Source: Bacillota bacterium (GTDB lineage Bacteria; Bacillota; Dehalobacteriia; UBA4068; UBA4997). From it: 34,139 nt of DNA. This document shows, piece by piece, positions 4,303 to 12,479 of the stretch. The translations under genes and the position numbers were made by a program. The stretch's first letter is position 1. Each line of letters begins with the position of its first letter. The notes under the pieces are model-generated. The model was given only the letters and a program-made list of their open reading frames with translations. It was not told where the DNA came from and did not search any database. The stretch spans positions 1-34,139 of the forward strand of contig JAETTP010000022.1 of assembly GCA_021769035.1 (NCBI GenBank). Direction: 5' to 3'.

Positions 4303-4929
4303 TTATTCAGCTATACGCACCCTGCGCCCCTCAATATGCAGCTTACCCTCCGCCAAAAGGCGCAATGCCAGCGGATAAATAATATGCTCCTGCTCCAAAA
4401 TACGGGCGGCAAGTTTATCCGCGTCGTCGTCCTCCAAAACCGGCACCGGCGCTTGCAGGATAATCGGGCCGCTGTCCATGTCCTCGTCCACAAAATGCAC
4501 CGTGCAGCCGGCCACCTTCACGCCATATTCAAAAGCCTGGCGTTGGCCGTGCAGGCCTGGAAAACTGGGCAGCAGAGCCGGGTGAATATTCAAAACGCGC
4601 TGCGGAAAAGCCTGCAACAGCACCGGCGTCACCAAACGCATATAACCCGCTAAGGCCACCACCTCCGCGCCGCTGGCTTTAAGCAAACGCACCACTTCAG
4701 CGTCATAATCCTCACGGGTGGCAAAATCAGCCGGCAGCAAAACCTTGGTCGGTACGCCGGCGGCCTCGGCTCGCTGCAAAGCATAGGCCTGCGTTTTATC
4801 GCTCAAAACCAGCACCAGCTCCGCCGGCAGCAAGCCGGACCTAATTTCGTCAATTATCGCTTGCAGATTGGAACCACTACCGGAAGCCAACACCGCGATT
4901 TTCAAGCTTTCATTTTTCAAACTTTCCAA
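4303..4929 (-). CDS. purN: Phosphoribosylglycinamide formyltransferase (TTG start)
   Basis: PurN transfers the formyl group of 10-formyl-THF to GAR. The 208-residue protein has the nucleotide-binding loop LASGSGSNLQAII (14-26), the catalytic Asn114 and His116 in NIHPALLPSFPG, and the catalytic Asp152 in HFVDEDMDSGPII. The start is a TTG at 4929. AGGGAGG lies 7 bases upstream and no nearby ATG in frame would keep the first beta strand. The ribosome-binding site is inside the last codons of purM, and only 2 bases separate the purM stop from this TTG, which suggests translational coupling. Confidence 0.96.
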   Translation of the reverse strand: MESLKNESLKIAVLASGSGSNLQAIIDEIRSGLLPAELVLVLSDKTQAYALQRAEAAGVPTKVLLPADFATREDYDAEVVRLLKASGAEVVALAGYMRLVTPVLLQAFPQRVLNIHPALLPSFPGLHGQRQAFEYGVKVAGCTVHFVDEDMDSGPIILQAPVPVLEDDDADKLAARILEQEHIIYPLALRLLAEGKLHIEGRRVRIAE

Positions 4930-4931
4930 GG

Positions 4932-5972
4932 CTAAACCTCCCTAGCGGTGTAATTAATAACCACGCCGGCCTCGTCTGCACCGCGTTTAGTCATCTGGCC
5001 AATCACAATAGCGTCCGGGCAGCAGCCTTGCACTTTATCGACATCATCTGGGGACACGATAACCACATAGCCAATGCCCATATTAAACACCCGGTGCATC
5101 TCCAGATATTCCACGCCACCTAAACGCTGAATCAGGTCAAAGATAGCCGGAGCCTGCCAGGCCGTAGCGTCGATATGCGCGCAAAGCTCTTTGGCATAAA
5201 CCCGCGGCAGGTTTTCCAGCAGACCGCCGCCGGTTATGTGACACATACCCTTAACCTCCACCTTTTCCAACAGCGGCAAAATATCCTTAACATAAATGCG
5301 CGTAGGCGTAAGCATAGCCTCACCCACTGTTTGGCTCAACTCCTCCACGTATGAGTTAATATTCAGGCTGCCTTCCAGCAGTACACGACGCGCCAGGGAA
5401 AACCCGTTGCTATGCAGGCCAGTGCTGGGCAGGCCCAGCAAAATATCGCCGGGCACCACCTTATCGCCAGTCAAAACCCGGCTTTTATCAGCCACGCCCA
5501 CGGCAAAACCGGCAATATCATATTCATCATCAGGATAAAAACCGGGCATTTCCGCCGTTTCGCCGCCAATCAGAGCGCAACCGGCCTGCTTGCAGCCCTC
5601 GGCAACGCCTTTTACAATCTCGGCCACCTGCTCCGGCACCAGCTTGCCTAAAGCAATATAATCCAGGAAAAACAGCGGCTCCGCACCCTGCGCCAAAATA
5701 TCGTTGACGCACATTGCCACCGCGTCGATACCAACGGTGTCGTGCTTATCCAGCAGCTGCGCCACCCGCAGCTTGGTGCCCACGCCGTCCGTGCCGGAAA
5801 GCAAAACCGGCTGGCGATACTTTTGCACATTCAGCTCAAAAAGCCCGGCAAAGCTGCCCAAATCCGTTAAAACCTCCGGCCGATAAGTGCTCTGTACAAA
5901 GCCTTTCATCTTTTCCACAGCCAGATTACCAGCGTCAATATCCACGCCGGCGTCCTTATAAGAAATTGCCAT
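4932..5972 (-). CDS. purM: Phosphoribosylformylglycinamidine cyclo-ligase
   Basis: PurM closes the imidazole ring of FGAM to give AIR. The 346-residue protein has the N-terminal [12 protein letters not shown], then [12 protein letters not shown] near residue 60-71, the [17 protein letters not shown] signature in the middle, and a glycine-rich [13 protein letters not shown] in the C-terminal half, in the usual PurM order and length. The ATG at 5972 is preceded by AGGAGG at 9 bases. It follows purF by 21 bases and runs almost directly into purN. No missing residues are seen. Confidence 0.97.
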
Positions 5973-5993
5973 TGCAAAACCGCCTCCTGTCTT

Positions 5994-7454
5994 TTATTCT
6001 GAAATACTAAAGTTATATTTTTCCTGGTCTTTATATTGCTGCTTAGGCACCGGCACCGGATACTTGCCGCTAAAACAGCCCTCGCAGTATTTAAGGCCGC
6101 ATTCTTCAATCAGCTTGGGGAAATGCTCCGCTTTAAGATAGCCCAGGCTGTCCACCCCAATCTGTTCGGCCAGCTTGTCCAACGGCACTTTATTGGCAAT
6201 CAGATTTTCCGGCCGATCTACGTCGGTGCCAAAATAGCAAGGATATTTAAACGGCGGCGCGGCAATCCGCAGATGAACCTCCTTGGCACCGGCCGCCCGC
6301 AGAATTTCCACAATCCGCTTGCTGGTGGTGCCGCGCACGATGGAATCGTCCAGCATAACCACCCTTTTGCCGCTGACAGTTTCCCGCAGAGCGTTCAGCT
6401 TGATTTTCACAGAATTTTCCCGTTGGCTTTGGGTAGGCTGAATAAAGGTGCGGGCGATATAACGGTTTTTGATGAAGCCCACGCCGTAAGGGATTCCGGA
6501 TTCCTGCGCGTAGCCCAGGGCAGCGTCCACACCGCTGTCCGGCACGCCGATTACCACGTCGGCCTCCACTGGATAATCCTGCGCCAACAGGCGGCCGGCC
6601 CGCAGGCGGGATTTGTGCACGCTAACCCCCTCGATAGTGGAATCCGGACGGGCAAAGTAACAGAACTCAAAAATGCAAATGCCACCCTCGTTTTTGCCGC
6701 AATGCGTGGTGATACTATGCGGACCTTTTTTGTCGATAACCACAATTTCACCCGGCTTAATATCCCGCACAAACTCCGCGCCGATACATTCCAGCGCGCA
6801 GGATTCCGAAGCAACCAGCCAGGCGTCATCCATGCGGCCCAGGCACAGCGGCCTAAAACCGTAGGGGTCGCGCACGGCCAGCATTTTATCATCACAGCTT
6901 AACACCAGCGAATAAGCGCCTTTTAAATGGAACATTGCAATTTCCACCGCTTCTTCCAGGGTTTCCGTTTGCAGCCATTGCTCAATAATCACGGAACTTA
7001 TCACCTCGGTGTCGGTGGTCGTCTGAAAGGTAATCCCCTTATGCTCCAGGTTAGATTTCAGCTCGGCAGTGTTAATCAAATTGCCGTTATGCGCCAGCAC
7101 CATCAAACCCTTAAAGTGGCGAGAAAGCAACGGCTGTGCGTTAAAGCGATAAGGCTGGCCGGTGGTGGAGTAGCGCGTATGACCGATTGCAATCTGGCCA
7201 CTGCCCAAACCGTCCAAATGCTCCCGCGTGAAAACATCAGGCACCAGGCCCAAATCCTTGTGCAGCGAAACCGTTCCATTGTTGTTGACAGCAATACCGC
7301 AGCTTTCCTGCCCGCGGTGCTGCAAGGCGTAAAGCGCCATATAAGTTTTTTGCACCACGTTGGTTTTGTTGGTGGCGTCGTAAATGCCAAAAACACCACA
7401 GTCCTCGTGCAGCTCGTCCCAAGGGGTTTCCCGCTGCCATTGCTCCTTTTGCAT
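5994..7454 (-). CDS. purF: Amidophosphoribosyltransferase (Bacillus-type, iron-sulfur)
   Basis: PurF commits PRPP to purine synthesis. From ATG 7454 the protein has 486 residues with a short propeptide; Cys19 in DCGVFGIYD would become the N-terminal nucleophile of the glutaminase domain after cleavage. The C-terminal phosphoribosyltransferase domain has the PRPP loop VVMLDDSIVRGTTSKR. Cysteines in CIFEFCYFARPDS, PCYFGTD and YCEGCFSGKYP match the 4Fe-4S ligand positions known in Bacillus PurF, where oxygen destroys the cluster. GAGG lies 9 bases before ATG 7454; an ATG at 7469 would add five residues but has poorly spaced GGGG. A 98-base gap to purB is the largest gap inside the pur cluster. 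I saw no convincing promoter or riboswitch in it. Confidence 0.96.
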   Translation of the reverse strand: MQKEQWQRETPWDELHEDCGVFGIYDATNKTNVVQKTYMALYALQHRGQESCGIAVNNNGTVSLHKDLGLVPDVFTREHLDGLGSGQIAIGHTRYSTTGQPYRFNAQPLLSRHFKGLMVLAHNGNLINTAELKSNLEHKGITFQTTTDTEVISSVIIEQWLQTETLEEAVEIAMFHLKGAYSLVLSCDDKMLAVRDPYGFRPLCLGRMDDAWLVASESCALECIGAEFVRDIKPGEIVVIDKKGPHSITTHCGKNEGGICIFEFCYFARPDSTIEGVSVHKSRLRAGRLLAQDYPVEADVVIGVPDSGVDAALGYAQESGIPYGVGFIKNRYIARTFIQPTQSQRENSVKIKLNALRETVSGKRVVMLDDSIVRGTTSKRIVEILRAAGAKEVHLRIAAPPFKYPCYFGTDVDRPENLIANKVPLDKLAEQIGVDSLGYLKAEHFPKLIEECGLKYCEGCFSGKYPVPVPKQQYKDQEKYNFSISE

Positions 7455-7567
7455 TTTATTGTACCTCATTTCCCCAATTAACCCGGCCTTGCGGCCTTAA
7501 TCCCATTAATAATATATAAACCTAAAAATTATCTAAAAAATGCGAAAACGAAAACCGCAAAGCGTAT

Positions 7568-8866
7568 TTAAAAAATGCCGGCTCGTTTGTAGATATAATC
7601 AAAATGTTTCAGATAATATTCGTAATCAAAGAGAGAGTCCAACTCCTCAATGGAGATAAAGCTCATAACCTCCTCGTCCTGCAACAAATAGTAGGCGAAA
7701 TCCATGTGCTCCTTGGCCGCGGCAATGGCGTTGCGCTGCACCATTTCATAGGCCTGCACACGCGGCACCCCGTGCTCCTGCAAAGCCATCAGCACCCGCT
7801 GGGAGAAGATAAGCCCCTTTGTCATATCCAAATTGTGCTCCATTTGCTCGTGATTAATGCTGATTCCCTGCAAGGTGTCCAACATCATTTGCAGCATATA
7901 ATCCGCCAGCAGGCAGCTATCCGCAATGATTATCCGCTCCGCCGAGGCGTGGGTGTAATCCCGCTCGTCCCAAAGCGGCACATTTTCCAGGGCAGCTATC
8001 GCATTGCCGCGCAAAATCCGGGCCAAGCCGCTAATCCGCTCCGCCTTAACCGGATTTATTTTGTGCGGCATGGCAAAAGAACCGACCATACCGTGCTCAA
8101 AAGGCTCGGCCAGCTCGGCAATTTCCGTACGCTCCAGCGTGCGTATTTCAATCGCAAATTTATCCAGAGTGGAGCCCAAAAGCGCCAACATCAACAGCAG
8201 CTCCGCGTGGCGGTCCCGCTGCAAAATCTGTGTAGCGGAAATGGCCTGCCGCAAATCCAAACGCCGGCAAACGTGCTCCTCAATAAAAGGGTCAATATGC
8301 GCGTATGAGCCCACCGCACCGGAAATTTTGCCCACCGCCACATTGCTACGGGCCTGGTGCAGCCGGGCCAGAGTGCGATCAATCTCCCCCGTCCAAACCA
8401 CCATCTTTAAGCCAAAGGACATCGGCTCGGCGTGCTCGCCGTGGGTGCGCCCCACCATCAAGGTGTATTTATGCGTTTTGGCCAACTCAGCCAGCACGTC
8501 TCGCAGCTGATAAAGCTTGCCGATAATCAAATCCACCGCTTGGCGCATTTGCACAGCCATGGAAGTATCCACCAAATCGGAGGCGGTTATGCCCCAATGC
8601 AGCTTTTTCGCATTTTCCTCGCCAATCCGCTCCGATACAGCCGCAAAAAAGGCCGCCACATCATGCCTAGTCACCGCTTCAATCTCCCGAATCCGCTGCA
8701 AATCAAAACCGGCCTTAGCCACAATATCATCGTAAACTTCCTGCTCCAGCTTGCCCATATCCTTCATTGCTTCACAAACAAACAATTCCACCTGGAGCAT
8801 TTGCTGAAAGCGGTTTTCGTCGGACCAAATTTTTTCCATTTCCGGCAGTCTAAAACGAGCAATCAC
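7568..8866 (-). CDS. purB: Adenylosuccinate lyase (GTG start)
   Basis: PurB cleaves fumarate from SAICAR and from adenylosuccinate, so it serves both IMP and AMP synthesis. The 432-residue length equals the Bacillus/Thermotoga-type enzyme. Seen are TRHDVAAF (66-73), the histidine-containing VGRTHGEHAEPMSFG (138-152), and the fumarase-superfamily signature GSFAMPHKINP at 262-272, whose serine (263) is the expected catalytic residue. The signature reads SFAMPHKIN where SSAMPHKRN is common, a mild variant. Start is GTG 8866, with GAGGTG 8 bases upstream. It occupies the position after purE where purC stands in many Bacillota operons. Confidence 0.96.
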   Translation of the reverse strand: MIARFRLPEMEKIWSDENRFQQMLQVELFVCEAMKDMGKLEQEVYDDIVAKAGFDLQRIREIEAVTRHDVAAFFAAVSERIGEENAKKLHWGITASDLVDTSMAVQMRQAVDLIIGKLYQLRDVLAELAKTHKYTLMVGRTHGEHAEPMSFGLKMVVWTGEIDRTLARLHQARSNVAVGKISGAVGSYAHIDPFIEEHVCRRLDLRQAISATQILQRDRHAELLLMLALLGSTLDKFAIEIRTLERTEIAELAEPFEHGMVGSFAMPHKINPVKAERISGLARILRGNAIAALENVPLWDERDYTHASAERIIIADSCLLADYMLQMMLDTLQGISINHEQMEHNLDMTKGLIFSQRVLMALQEHGVPRVQAYEMVQRNAIAAAKEHMDFAYYLLQDEEVMSFISIEELDSLFDYEYYLKHFDYIYKRAGIF

Positions 8867-8897
8867 GGCTTTTTCACCTCATCCCCAAGCTATCGAC

Positions 8898-9410
8898 TTA
8901 CTTTTGGGCCAGATACCCAGCCACACCCAGCTGCTGCAATTTAGCGTCCTTAGCCAAAACGCCGTCGCGCAGGCCCGCCTTAAAAGCAGCCAGCCGTCCT
9001 GACAAATCACTATCGGACAACGCCAATATCTGGGCCGCCAAGATACCGGCGTTGCGAGCGCCGTCTATCGCCACCGTAGCCACCGGTATGCCGGCCGGCA
9101 TTTGCACCGAGGCCAGCAATGCGTCCAGACCAGCTAATGCGCCGGATTTAATCGGCACGGCAATCACCGGCAGGGTGGTTTCAGCCGCAATTACCCCGGC
9201 CAAATGCGCCGCCCCGCCGGCCCCGGCAATAATCACGCCAAAGCCAGCCTCCGCCGCTCCGGCAGCCAGCTCCGCCGTGCGCTGCGGCGTGCGGTGGGCG
9301 GAACTCACATGCACCTCGTAAGGCAGGCGCAACTCATCCAGCACCTGACAAGCGTTCTGCATAGTTGCCAAATCCGAATCACTGCCCATAATAATCATCA
9401 CTTTTTTCAT
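8898..9410 (-). CDS. purE: N5-carboxyaminoimidazole ribonucleotide mutase (class I PurE)
   Basis: PurE moves the carboxyl group of N5-CAIR to C4, giving CAIR. The 170-residue protein has the phosphate-binding loop MGSDSDLATM (8-17), the active-site SAHRTP (37-42) and AGGAAHLAGVIAAETTLPVI. These are class I PurE features, which implies a PurK partner; no purK is seen in this window. ATG 9410 has GAGGGG 8 bases upstream; a TTG at 9413 would add one residue. It is the first pur gene, 78 bases after thrC. That gap contains an AT-rich stretch but no clear terminator or matched promoter pair, so the pur genes may be read through from trmB-thrC. Confidence 0.96.
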   Translation of the reverse strand: MKKVMIIMGSDSDLATMQNACQVLDELRLPYEVHVSSAHRTPQRTAELAAGAAEAGFGVIIAGAGGAAHLAGVIAAETTLPVIAVPIKSGALAGLDALLASVQMPAGIPVATVAIDGARNAGILAAQILALSDSDLSGRLAAFKAGLRDGVLAKDAKLQQLGVAGYLAQK

Positions 9411-9488
9411 CAATCAAACGCCCCTCATTCCCTGCAGATTTTAGCTATCCGCTAAACATTATTCCCAGATTAAGCCTATTATATTTTC

Positions 9489-11693
9489 TTATATTTTCAG
9501 CAAGTCGCAGACCACCTGTGGCATTTCCGCCGCCTCAGCCACCAGCTTGTGCAGCACCGGTCGCTGCTCCAAATCCCGCAGGGCCGGATGCACCGGCTGT
9601 CCAACAGCCGCCGAAAGCCGCCGCAGAATTTCCGCTTCAGTTTCTTCAGCTGCCGCCGGCTCGCCCAAGGCAGCCAAAACCGCCCGGCCGAACTTAAACG
9701 GGCTGGCTGTGGAAGCCACCACCACCGGCCGTTTATCGCCGCTTTGGGCCAGATAATCCTCGTAAACCGCCACGGCCACCGCTGTGTGTGGGTCCAAAGC
9801 GTAGCCCTGCTCAGTGAAATACTTTTTAATAGTGGCCGCCACCCGATCCTCCGTGGCATAGCCGCCGCTCATTAAGGTTTGCCATTTGGCAAAGGCCGCC
9901 GCGTCCGCCTCAAAACAACCTTTTTCCGCCAAATCAGCGTAAGCAGCCCGCACCTTATCTACATCGCCGCCAGTCATTGCATAGTAAAAACGCTCAAAAT
10001 TGCTGCTAATCAAAATATCCATGCTGGGGCTGGTGGTTTTCACAAAATCCCGCCGCCGGTCATAAACCCCGGTCGCCAGTACATCGGCCAGCACCTTGTT
10101 GCTGTTGCTGGCACAAATCAGCCGGCCAACCGGCAGGCCCATCTCCTTAGCATAGTAGGCCGCCAGAATATTGCCAAAATTGCCGGTGGGCACCACCACA
10201 TTAAAGCTTTCGCCCGGCTGCAAGCTGCCCTGACGTAGCAGCTCGGCATAGCTCCAAAAATAATAAACAATCTGCGGGCACAAACGGCCCCAGTTAATTG
10301 AATTAGCCGAGGAAAACTCCTTGTTGGCCGCAGCCAACCGCTGCTGCATTTCCCTATCTGCAAAAATCTGTTTGACGCCGCTCTGGCAGTTGTCAAAATT
10401 ACCCTTAATCGCCACCACATGCGTGTTATCGCCGTCGGTGGTAGCCATTTGCAGATACTGCGCCTGGCTGACGCCGCCGTGCGGATAAAAACAAATCACC
10501 TGAATGCCAGGTACGTTTTTAAAGCCCTCCAAGGCAGCCTTGCCGGTATCGCCGGAGGTTGCCACCAACACGGCAATCTCGTGGCTGTCACCCTGCAAAC
10601 GTACCGCCTCTGTTAAAAGCCGCGGCAAAATTTGTAGCGCCATATCCTTAAAGGCGGCCGTCGGCCCCTGCCACAGCTCCAAAATATGTAGACCGTCTGC
10701 CAGCTTAACCAGCGGAGCAATCTCCGGTTTGGCAAAATTTCGACCGTAGGAAGCGGACACAATCTCCTGCAAACGCTCCGGCTGATAATCCGTTAAAAAC
10801 AGGCCCAAAATCTTAGCCGCCAAGGTTTGATAGCTCATCGCCTGCAACTCCTGCCAGCTATATTCAAAAGCCGGCAGCGACTCTGGCACAAACAAACCGC
10901 CGTCAGCCGCCAACCCCTGCCGAATTGCCGCCGCGGCATTTTGACCGCCGGCCTCGCCGCCGCGTGTACTGATATATTGCATAGGTTTCACCTCAAAAAA
11001 ATTCTGGTTTGATTCTTTTTCTTCCATATTATTTAACGCCTTAAAGGCAGGCCGGGCTTCCAATCGATAAATCGGCTGGCCCAAGCGCCGAAAACGCATT
11101 TCATACTCCGTAGGCCGGTCTTGCGGCGCAGCTTGCAGAGCATAATCCCAATCCAGCTCCGTCAACCGCCAGCCGGCAGCCAACAGACTATCCGCTGAAA
11201 AGCTGAACAAATTGCGATTGTCCGTTTTCAACCAAAGCTCGCCGTCAGGCGCCAGCAACTCCTTATAAAGCGACAAAAAATTACTGTGCGTCAAACGGCG
11301 TTTGGTATGCTTTGCTTTCGGCCAGGGGTCGGAAAAGTTTAAGTAAATCCGATCCAACTCACCGGGCGCAAAGCAAGTGCCTAACAAGTAAGCGTCCAAC
11401 CACAAAAAGGCCAAATTGGCTGGGGGTGCCGCTACGTTATCCCCCACGGCTTTTGCCAAAACAGAATCATATTTTTCCAGGCCGATAATATTCAAATCCG
11501 GAAAATCCTGAGCCATAGTGTTGGCAAAACGGCCACGGCCGCAGCCAATTTCCAAACACAGCTTTGCCGTCTGGCTGCCCTGGGCGGCAAAATGCTGCCG
11601 CCAACAGCCGCGAGGAGCCGTATCCGCCCGCAGCACCAGCCTGGGCTGCGCCAAAAGCAACTCCTTGCTGCCTGGTATATTTCGCAAACGCAT
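9489..11693 (-). CDS. trmB/thrC: Composite ORF: TrmB tRNA (m7G46) methyltransferase + threonine synthase
   Basis: One 734-codon frame encodes two complete enzymes. Residues 1 to about 215 are TrmB: SAM loop LEIGCGRGRF (47-56), NFSDPWPKAKHTKRRL (119-134) and the C-terminal GQPIYRLEA typical of the family end. Residues 238-734 are PLP-dependent threonine synthase, about 497 residues: MQYISTRGG start, GPTAAFKDM with Lys349 expected to bind PLP, ATSGDTGKAALEGF and VPTGNFGNILAAYYAKEMG. The linker (216-237) is low-complexity. ThrC has its own ATG at 10982 with GAGGTG 6 bases upstream, so free ThrC is very likely made. The join crosses a T7 tract (10995-11001); a tract of 6 or 8 T would end TrmB before ThrC. 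TrmB starts at ATG 11693 behind AAGGAAC. Both activities are sure; the covalent fusion is not. Confidence 0.9.
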   Translation of the reverse strand: MRLRNIPGSKELLLAQPRLVLRADTAPRGCWRQHFAAQGSQTAKLCLEIGCGRGRFANTMAQDFPDLNIIGLEKYDSVLAKAVGDNVAAPPANLAFLWLDAYLLGTCFAPGELDRIYLNFSDPWPKAKHTKRRLTHSNFLSLYKELLAPDGELWLKTDNRNLFSFSADSLLAAGWRLTELDWDYALQAAPQDRPTEYEMRFRRLGQPIYRLEARPAFKALNNMEEKESNQNFFEVKPMQYISTRGGEAGGQNAAAAIRQGLAADGGLFVPESLPAFEYSWQELQAMSYQTLAAKILGLFLTDYQPERLQEIVSASYGRNFAKPEIAPLVKLADGLHILELWQGPTAAFKDMALQILPRLLTEAVRLQGDSHEIAVLVATSGDTGKAALEGFKNVPGIQVICFYPHGGVSQAQYLQMATTDGDNTHVVAIKGNFDNCQSGVKQIFADREMQQRLAAANKEFSSANSINWGRLCPQIVYYFWSYAELLRQGSLQPGESFNVVVPTGNFGNILAAYYAKEMGLPVGRLICASNSNKVLADVLATGVYDRRRDFVKTTSPSMDILISSNFERFYYAMTGGDVDKVRAAYADLAEKGCFEADAAAFAKWQTLMSGGYATEDRVAATIKKYFTEQGYALDPHTAVAVAVYEDYLAQSGDKRPVVVASTASPFKFGRAVLAALGEPAAAEETEAEILRRLSAAVGQPVHPALRDLEQRPVLHKLVAEAAEMPQVVCDLLKI

Positions 11694-11726: not shown

Positions 11727-12071
11727 CTAAACATCAGCCAAAAGTTCGTCTATCGCTTTATCCACCTGATCTTTAGTCAGGCCGTGCTCCTTTTCCAGAC
11801 GCAGCTCAATAGCCTGCGCCCAAAAGGACATCTTTTCGGCCATTTTCTTAAATTTCTTACTATTCATATCCTTGCTGCCACCCCGGTCAATCGCATTGGC
11901 AGCCACCACCGTGGCAATAGACTGGCACTTAATCAAGGTTTCCTTATCATATTGCTGATAATTAGACTGCCACTCTGCCGTAACCTCTTTAAAATAGGCG
12001 GCAAACTCCGCAAAAGGAATATCCTCTTCCATCTGCAAATATTCGCGCAATTTGGCAAACAAAGCCTCCAT
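11727..12071 (-). CDS. Unknown 114-residue, helix-rich charged protein
   Basis: I do not recognise this protein. ATG 12071 has AAGGAG 7 bases upstream; an in-frame TTG at 12089 would add six residues but lacks a site. The sequence is soluble and strongly helical in composition, with no signal peptide or membrane segment and only one Cys. Residues about 50-80 are Lys-rich (SKKFKKMAEKM) and the C-terminus (KDQVDKAIDELLADV) looks like an amphipathic helix. It lies between rnpB and trmB-thrC with a 33-base gap to trmB, so it probably heads or joins the trmB-thrC-pur transcript. The RBS, composition and operon position support a real gene. Confidence 0.7.
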   Translation of the reverse strand: MEALFAKLREYLQMEEDIPFAEFAAYFKEVTAEWQSNYQQYDKETLIKCQSIATVVAANAIDRGGSKDMNSKKFKKMAEKMSFWAQAIELRLEKEHGLTKDQVDKAIDELLADV

Positions 12072-12117
12072 TAATCTTCTCCTTTTCAAAGCAAATTCAG
12101 TTATGCCAAATTACAAA

Positions 12118-12479
12118 CCAAGCAAGCCTATAAGCCGGGTTCTGTCGTGAATGAACATCTATCTTGTGCGGCTGTTGCCAGCCGCCTCCTGCGGCCTTTC
12201 CCAGAAAACAAGACGGGCCGCCTTGTGCGTTTTCTTTTGGCCTTGCTTCAGGTGGGGTTTACCTAGCCGGTTGGTCGCCCAACCGCTGGTGCGCTCTTAC
12301 CGCACCGTTCCATCCTTGCCGGTTTGGCGCGTCTGCCAAACTTAGGCGGTTTGTTTCTGTGGCACTTGCCTTGAGATCACTCTCACCGGCCGTTAGCCGG
12401 CACCCTGCCCTACGAAGCCCGGACTTTCCTCAGAGAGAGCCTTTTGGGATTTCCCTCCGCGTTCATCCAGCTTACTTGG
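12118..12479 (-). ncRNA. rnpB: RNase P RNA (bacterial type A)
   Basis: The catalytic RNA of RNase P, which matures tRNA 5' ends. Read on the minus strand, the 5' arm at 12470-12479 pairs perfectly (one G-U) with the 3' arm at 12118-12127 to give a 10-bp P1. The conserved GAGGAAAGTCCGGGCTTC block is at 12414-12431, its P4 partner ACAGAACCCGGCTTATAG at 12128-12145, and the universal GTAAGAGCGCACCAG block at 12286-12300. The size, about 362 nt, and the latter block suggest type A rather than Bacillus type B. Ends are taken from P1 and may be off by a few bases. No protein-coding reading of this stretch is credible. Confidence 0.96.

Follow-up and report, generated by a model that had tools for sequence, protein, structure and literature searches.

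A TrmB–threonine synthase fusion gene shared by a bacterial family, with a probable internal start for thrC

Does a single gene encode both the tRNA methyltransferase TrmB and the threonine synthase ThrC, or are two separate genes made to look like one by the length of a homopolymer? The question is raised by a 34,139-nucleotide stretch of bacterial DNA (the window, by which the whole of this stretch is meant), in which positions 9489-11693 of the minus strand form one uninterrupted, ATG-initiated open reading frame of 734 codons (734 amino acids). An earlier note on this DNA had assigned TrmB and threonine synthase to this single frame, as we also find. It had further proposed that the fusion hinges on a tract of seven T at the join, which could be a sequencing or assembly error, a slippage-controlled switch between fused and separate products, or part of a real fusion with added internal initiation. 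The features needed to weigh these options are the following:

11055..11693, minus strand: TrmB domain, tRNA (guanine46-N7)-methyltransferase, residues 1-213 (PF02390, 1.1e-39; NF001080 and TIGR00091 above cut-off; 1yzh, 7nyb, 2fca)
10983..11054, minus strand: linker, residues 214-237, which varies in sequence and length among relatives and is always in frame and stop-free
10995..11001, minus strand: T7 tract (coding strand) with an in-frame T TTT TTT heptamer, in this genome only
10993..10995, minus strand: TGA in the -1 frame that overlaps the Shine-Dalgarno, shared by 9/9 genus members and probably what is left of the former trmB stop
10989..10994, minus strand: GAGGTG, the Shine-Dalgarno of thrC inside the fused frame, without variation in the genus (computed duplex energy -11.5 kcal/mol, 9/9)
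10980..10982, minus strand: ATG (Met238), where free ThrC probably starts internally, aligned with the N-terminus of the relatives' stand-alone ThrC and of solved chains
9489..10982, minus strand: ThrC domain, threonine synthase, residues 238-734 (TIGR00260, 250 bits; PF14821, PF00291, PF24857; 8g1y, 1.4e-137)

Pfam and NCBIfam models match TrmB over residues 43-211 and ThrC over residues 239-686 of the 734-residue protein. The specific models for TrmB score above their cut-offs (TIGR00091, 140 bits against 112.65; NF001080, 142.9 bits against 132), and so does TIGR00260 for ThrC, at full length (250 bits against 167.1). Since the solved TrmB chains 1yzh, 7nyb and 2fca align with residues 1-213, and the closest solved ThrC chains begin to align at residues 237-240 (8g1y covers residues 240-728), both enzymes are complete. 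The first half is a full-length homologue of stand-alone TrmB (TIGR00091/NF001080; 7nyb, 2fca, 1yzh) and has the same active-site motifs, but its C-terminus continues into ThrC. The second half is likewise a full-length homologue of stand-alone ThrC (TIGR00260; 8g1y), contains the PLP lysine motif and retains its own Shine-Dalgarno and ATG; the difference from stand-alone ThrC is that it also forms the C-terminal half of a fusion with TrmB. One TrmB-bearing fusion is already known, the bifunctional PrmC-TrmB protein (NF002421, PRK01544), in which the partner is different and TrmB lies in the second half of the model; the protein described here scores 32.7 bits with NF002421 against a cut-off of 567.

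In Escherichia coli TrmB, loss of D144, H151, R154, R155, D180, T217 or E220 reduces activity to <10% (PMC10130221). The equivalents of these essential residues, as assigned by motif (D122, H129, R132, R133, D158, T195 and E198), are invariant, and so are the ThrC motifs GPTAAFKD, in which K349 is expected to be the PLP lysine, and TSGDTG (loop T379-G384). With these residues and motifs retained, both halves of the protein look active, as far as activity can be read from sequence.

On the coding strand the join is CAG AAT TTT TTT GAG GTG AAA CCT ATG CAA. Its T tract is exactly 7 nucleotides long (A7 on the plus strand, 10995-11001), as had been counted, and the frame arithmetic put forward for it is right: eight T would give TTT TTT TGA and six would give TTG AGG TGA. 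That the frame would close at once with 8 or 6 T, together with the error-prone nature of homopolymers, is what could be said for truly separate trmB and thrC genes joined by a sequencing or assembly error. However, nine other separately assembled genomes of the same family are fused in frame without a T7, the T runs beside GAGG in their joins being of at most four T, or absent. The nearest relative (G006, 92% protein identity) has AAAAATTTT over an equal number of bases; in the comparison of CAGAAAAATTTTGAGG with the window's CAGAATTTTTTTGAGG the base count is kept and the letters differ. These observations refute the error reading, to which we attach practically no probability. Since the nearest relative has other letters over the same base count, the frame is no miscounting artefact and the T7 is best explained as an incidental product of substitution in the window's species, unrelated to the join. 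The window contains 12 runs of 7-8 A or T, four of which lie within likely genes, so the T7 alone is not unusual. The idea that the fusion hinges on this tract was thus mistaken: all 10 family genomes are fused and the other nine lack it. The dependence holds only in the trivial sense that any frame-shifting indel within the linker would separate the genes again, because both other frames have stops there.

Slippage on the T7, either during transcription or by -1 ribosomal frameshifting on T TTT TTT into the TGA, would yield free TrmB besides the fusion and could serve as a regulated switch. The heptamer is in the right phase with a -1 frame TGA directly after it. All nine genus genomes share this TGA, and the equivalent place in G006 is occupied by A AAT TTT, also a possible slippery heptamer. 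Nevertheless, no such heptamer is found in the other seven genus members or in G009, the single genome of the sister genus, which have GAT TTT, GCT TTT, GAT ATT, GAT TAT, GCA AAT or GAT AAG instead, and T7 runs are found in other genes of the window too. A slippery tract is therefore not conserved, as the T7 is confined to this genome and a heptamer to this genome and G006, and a slippage-controlled switch is unsupported as a general mechanism and very improbable. Some free TrmB could conceivably arise by such a leak in the species of the window, with no conserved device behind it.

Comparison with relatives had been suggested as a check. The same uninterrupted, stop-free fusion was found in 10/10 family genomes, nine from the genus (the window's own included) and one from the sister genus. 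The genus genomes are all drafts; in G007 the contig starts inside TrmB and the join is present. A single Thr_synth_N match and a single true Methyltransf_4 match (cut short by the contig end in G007) were found per genus genome, both inside the fusion gene, and no second copy of ThrC or TrmB was found in the genus genomes; further weak PF02390 (Methyltransf_4) matches are short, partial and in other open frames. The cell therefore has no separate gene of either protein family as a fallback. G009 is fused through the join, with a run of N further on, inside ThrC. A split ThrC in this genome was considered and rejected: the run of about 190 N (L031, about 1686-1878) splits the ThrC match in searches, and no biological break is visible.

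The earlier note had also remarked on a separate ATG for ThrC with GAGGTG 6 nt upstream, and both elements are where it placed them (10980-10982 and 10989-10994). GAGGTGA before Met238 is invariant in 9/9 genus genomes within an otherwise variable linker. The GAG and GTG codons at the junction are kept in 9/9, while elsewhere in these genes GAG makes up 29-84% of Glu codons and GTG 47-69% of Val codons. Shine-Dalgarno strength, computed as the energy of the duplex with a 16S 3' tail, is -11.5 kcal/mol at the junction in 9/9, which ranks first among the 8-17 internal ATGs of each copy; trmB's own Shine-Dalgarno, where readable, is weaker (-4.8 to -8.3). In G009 the junction site is weaker (-7.4) but still first among internal ATGs. 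Shared ancestry could account for part of the invariance of GAGGTGA, and a strong Shine-Dalgarno alone is no proof of use. Because the thrC Shine-Dalgarno is both strong and conserved, free ThrC (about 54 kDa) is probably made besides the fusion, by predicted internal initiation. Our literature search for internal initiation in fused genes found no paper. The presence of the fusion throughout the family and the conserved strong Shine-Dalgarno support the last of the three options, and we hold with high confidence that the fusion is genuine and fixed, with internal initiation of thrC very probably retained.

How could such a gene have arisen? Elsewhere in the class, trmB is separate and lies directly upstream of thrC in the genomes in which the two genes were located together. 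The gaps between these unfused genes are mostly of -4 to +37 nt, with a few of 75-99 nt and one of -40 (L018, as given by the stop-finding script). Translational coupling, by termination-reinitiation at overlaps or short gaps, occurs in closely spaced native gene pairs, and its efficiency drops steeply by 14-38 nt (PMC10666635). The unfused relatives resemble such pairs in having gaps mostly of -4 to +20 nt and, in several cases, a Shine-Dalgarno that lies within the end of trmB or overlaps it, whereas the fused family lacks in-frame termination between trmB and thrC. Since most gaps fit the coupling range, translational coupling probably preceded fusion. In one family of unfused relatives (f7) the TGA that ends trmB shares bases with the Shine-Dalgarno (AAATGAGGT), and in two of its genomes (G036 and G040) it is in frame with thrC. 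TGAGGTGA is present in 9/9 of the fused genus, where its TGA is in the -1 frame. The simplest account, for which the ancestral stop position is taken from the different family f7, would be that a tightly spaced trmB-thrC operon pair in the family ancestor became one frame, most likely when a small indel moved the trmB stop overlapping the thrC Shine-Dalgarno (TGAGGTGA) out of frame. The product of the gene would be a TrmB-linker-ThrC protein of about 80 kDa. With the thrC Shine-Dalgarno and ATG retained, internal initiation is very probable and would give a free ThrC of about 54 kDa, while TrmB would exist in the fused form only.

A second TrmB-ThrC fusion was found in another family of the same order (G010, family f2; L013 1501-3630). 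Its linker is different and very short (about 9 residues, CSMQKEDRH) and is open in all three frames; AAGGAGG precedes the ThrC ATG, and the junction Shine-Dalgarno is again of -11.5 kcal/mol. A maximum-likelihood tree built from 37 ThrC proteins requires two changes between the separate and the fused state, a number already imposed by its well-supported branches, making the second fusion independent of the first. Of 398 genomes surveyed across the phylum, 145 had a match at E <= 1e-140, and none of these showed a further fusion; at this threshold a more diverged fusion could be missed. In yet another family of the order (f4), three genomes (G012, G015 and G017) searched with the fusion as query gave a match to ThrC alone, and no TrmB match at E<=1e-3; one of them, G012, has 96% completeness. 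TrmB may have been lost or have strongly diverged in that family.

The length of the linker, measured from QPI close to the TrmB terminus (in G009, KPI) up to the methionine of ThrC, bears on whether the fused form matters to the cell. Family linkers are of 32, 29, 30, 30, 24, 21, 21, 21, 18 and 20 codons, all in frame and stop-free. These seven distinct lengths (18, 20, 21, 24, 29, 30 and 32 codons) imply at least six changes, all of them multiples of 3. Each linker has at least one stop in each of the two other frames, so that an indel shifting the frame would have split the gene in two again, and separate genes are viable in most relatives. Were the frame free to vary, six changes of length would all be divisible by three with a probability of about (1/3)^6 = 0.001, a rough estimate that assumes independent changes. 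This sits uneasily with the view that the fusion is real but neutral, i.e. that an operon pair lost its stop, that the cell relies for threonine synthase entirely on free ThrC initiated internally and that the fused form is tolerated run-through: no linker has returned to the separate state through the at least six changes of length. On the other hand, the strong retained Shine-Dalgarno makes abundant free ThrC likely, and no pathway is known to link m7G46 methylation with threonine synthesis. Neutrality differs from our preferred explanation, a genuine and fixed fusion with internal initiation, only in the purpose of the fusion, and the likelihoods given to the two are not mutually exclusive; we regard it as unlikely, while giving it some weight. 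Selection for the fused enzyme as such, with tethering or co-regulation linking tRNA maturation or the use of SAM to threonine supply, would accord with a fusion that arose twice in one order and was kept in frame through repeated change of the linker, but seems to us a decidedly long shot. We know of no functional reason for pairing a tRNA modification enzyme with an enzyme of amino-acid biosynthesis.

The genuine and fixed fusion offers a clean example of a tightly spaced operon pair that became one gene with the downstream start retained, and a single order contains genomes with separate genes, genomes with the fused gene and a second fusion of independent origin. The TrmB-ThrC pairing is a testable oddity and no major surprise. 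Gene callers should neither split TrmB-ThrC nor label it as a frameshift. No published TrmB-threonine synthase fusion was found in a literature search; the domain pair is new as far as could be searched, while the process itself is ordinary. Surveys of prokaryotes have covered conserved frame transitions, and also fused against adjacent genes (PMC3711429).

The surroundings of the gene were also inspected. Upstream of trmB-thrC lies a bacterial RNase P RNA of class A (12115-12478, minus strand; 292.6 bits), the sole Rfam match in the window at the gathering threshold. Between it and the fusion is an open reading frame of 120 amino acids (11727-12089, minus strand) with no Pfam match; in the sister genus an open reading frame of similar size (112 amino acids; L031 218-556, plus strand) directly precedes the fusion. 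The fusion is followed at 4303-9413 (minus strand) by purine-type genes of the formyltransferase, AIR synthase, amidotransferase/phosphoribosyltransferase, adenylosuccinate lyase and AIR carboxylase families.
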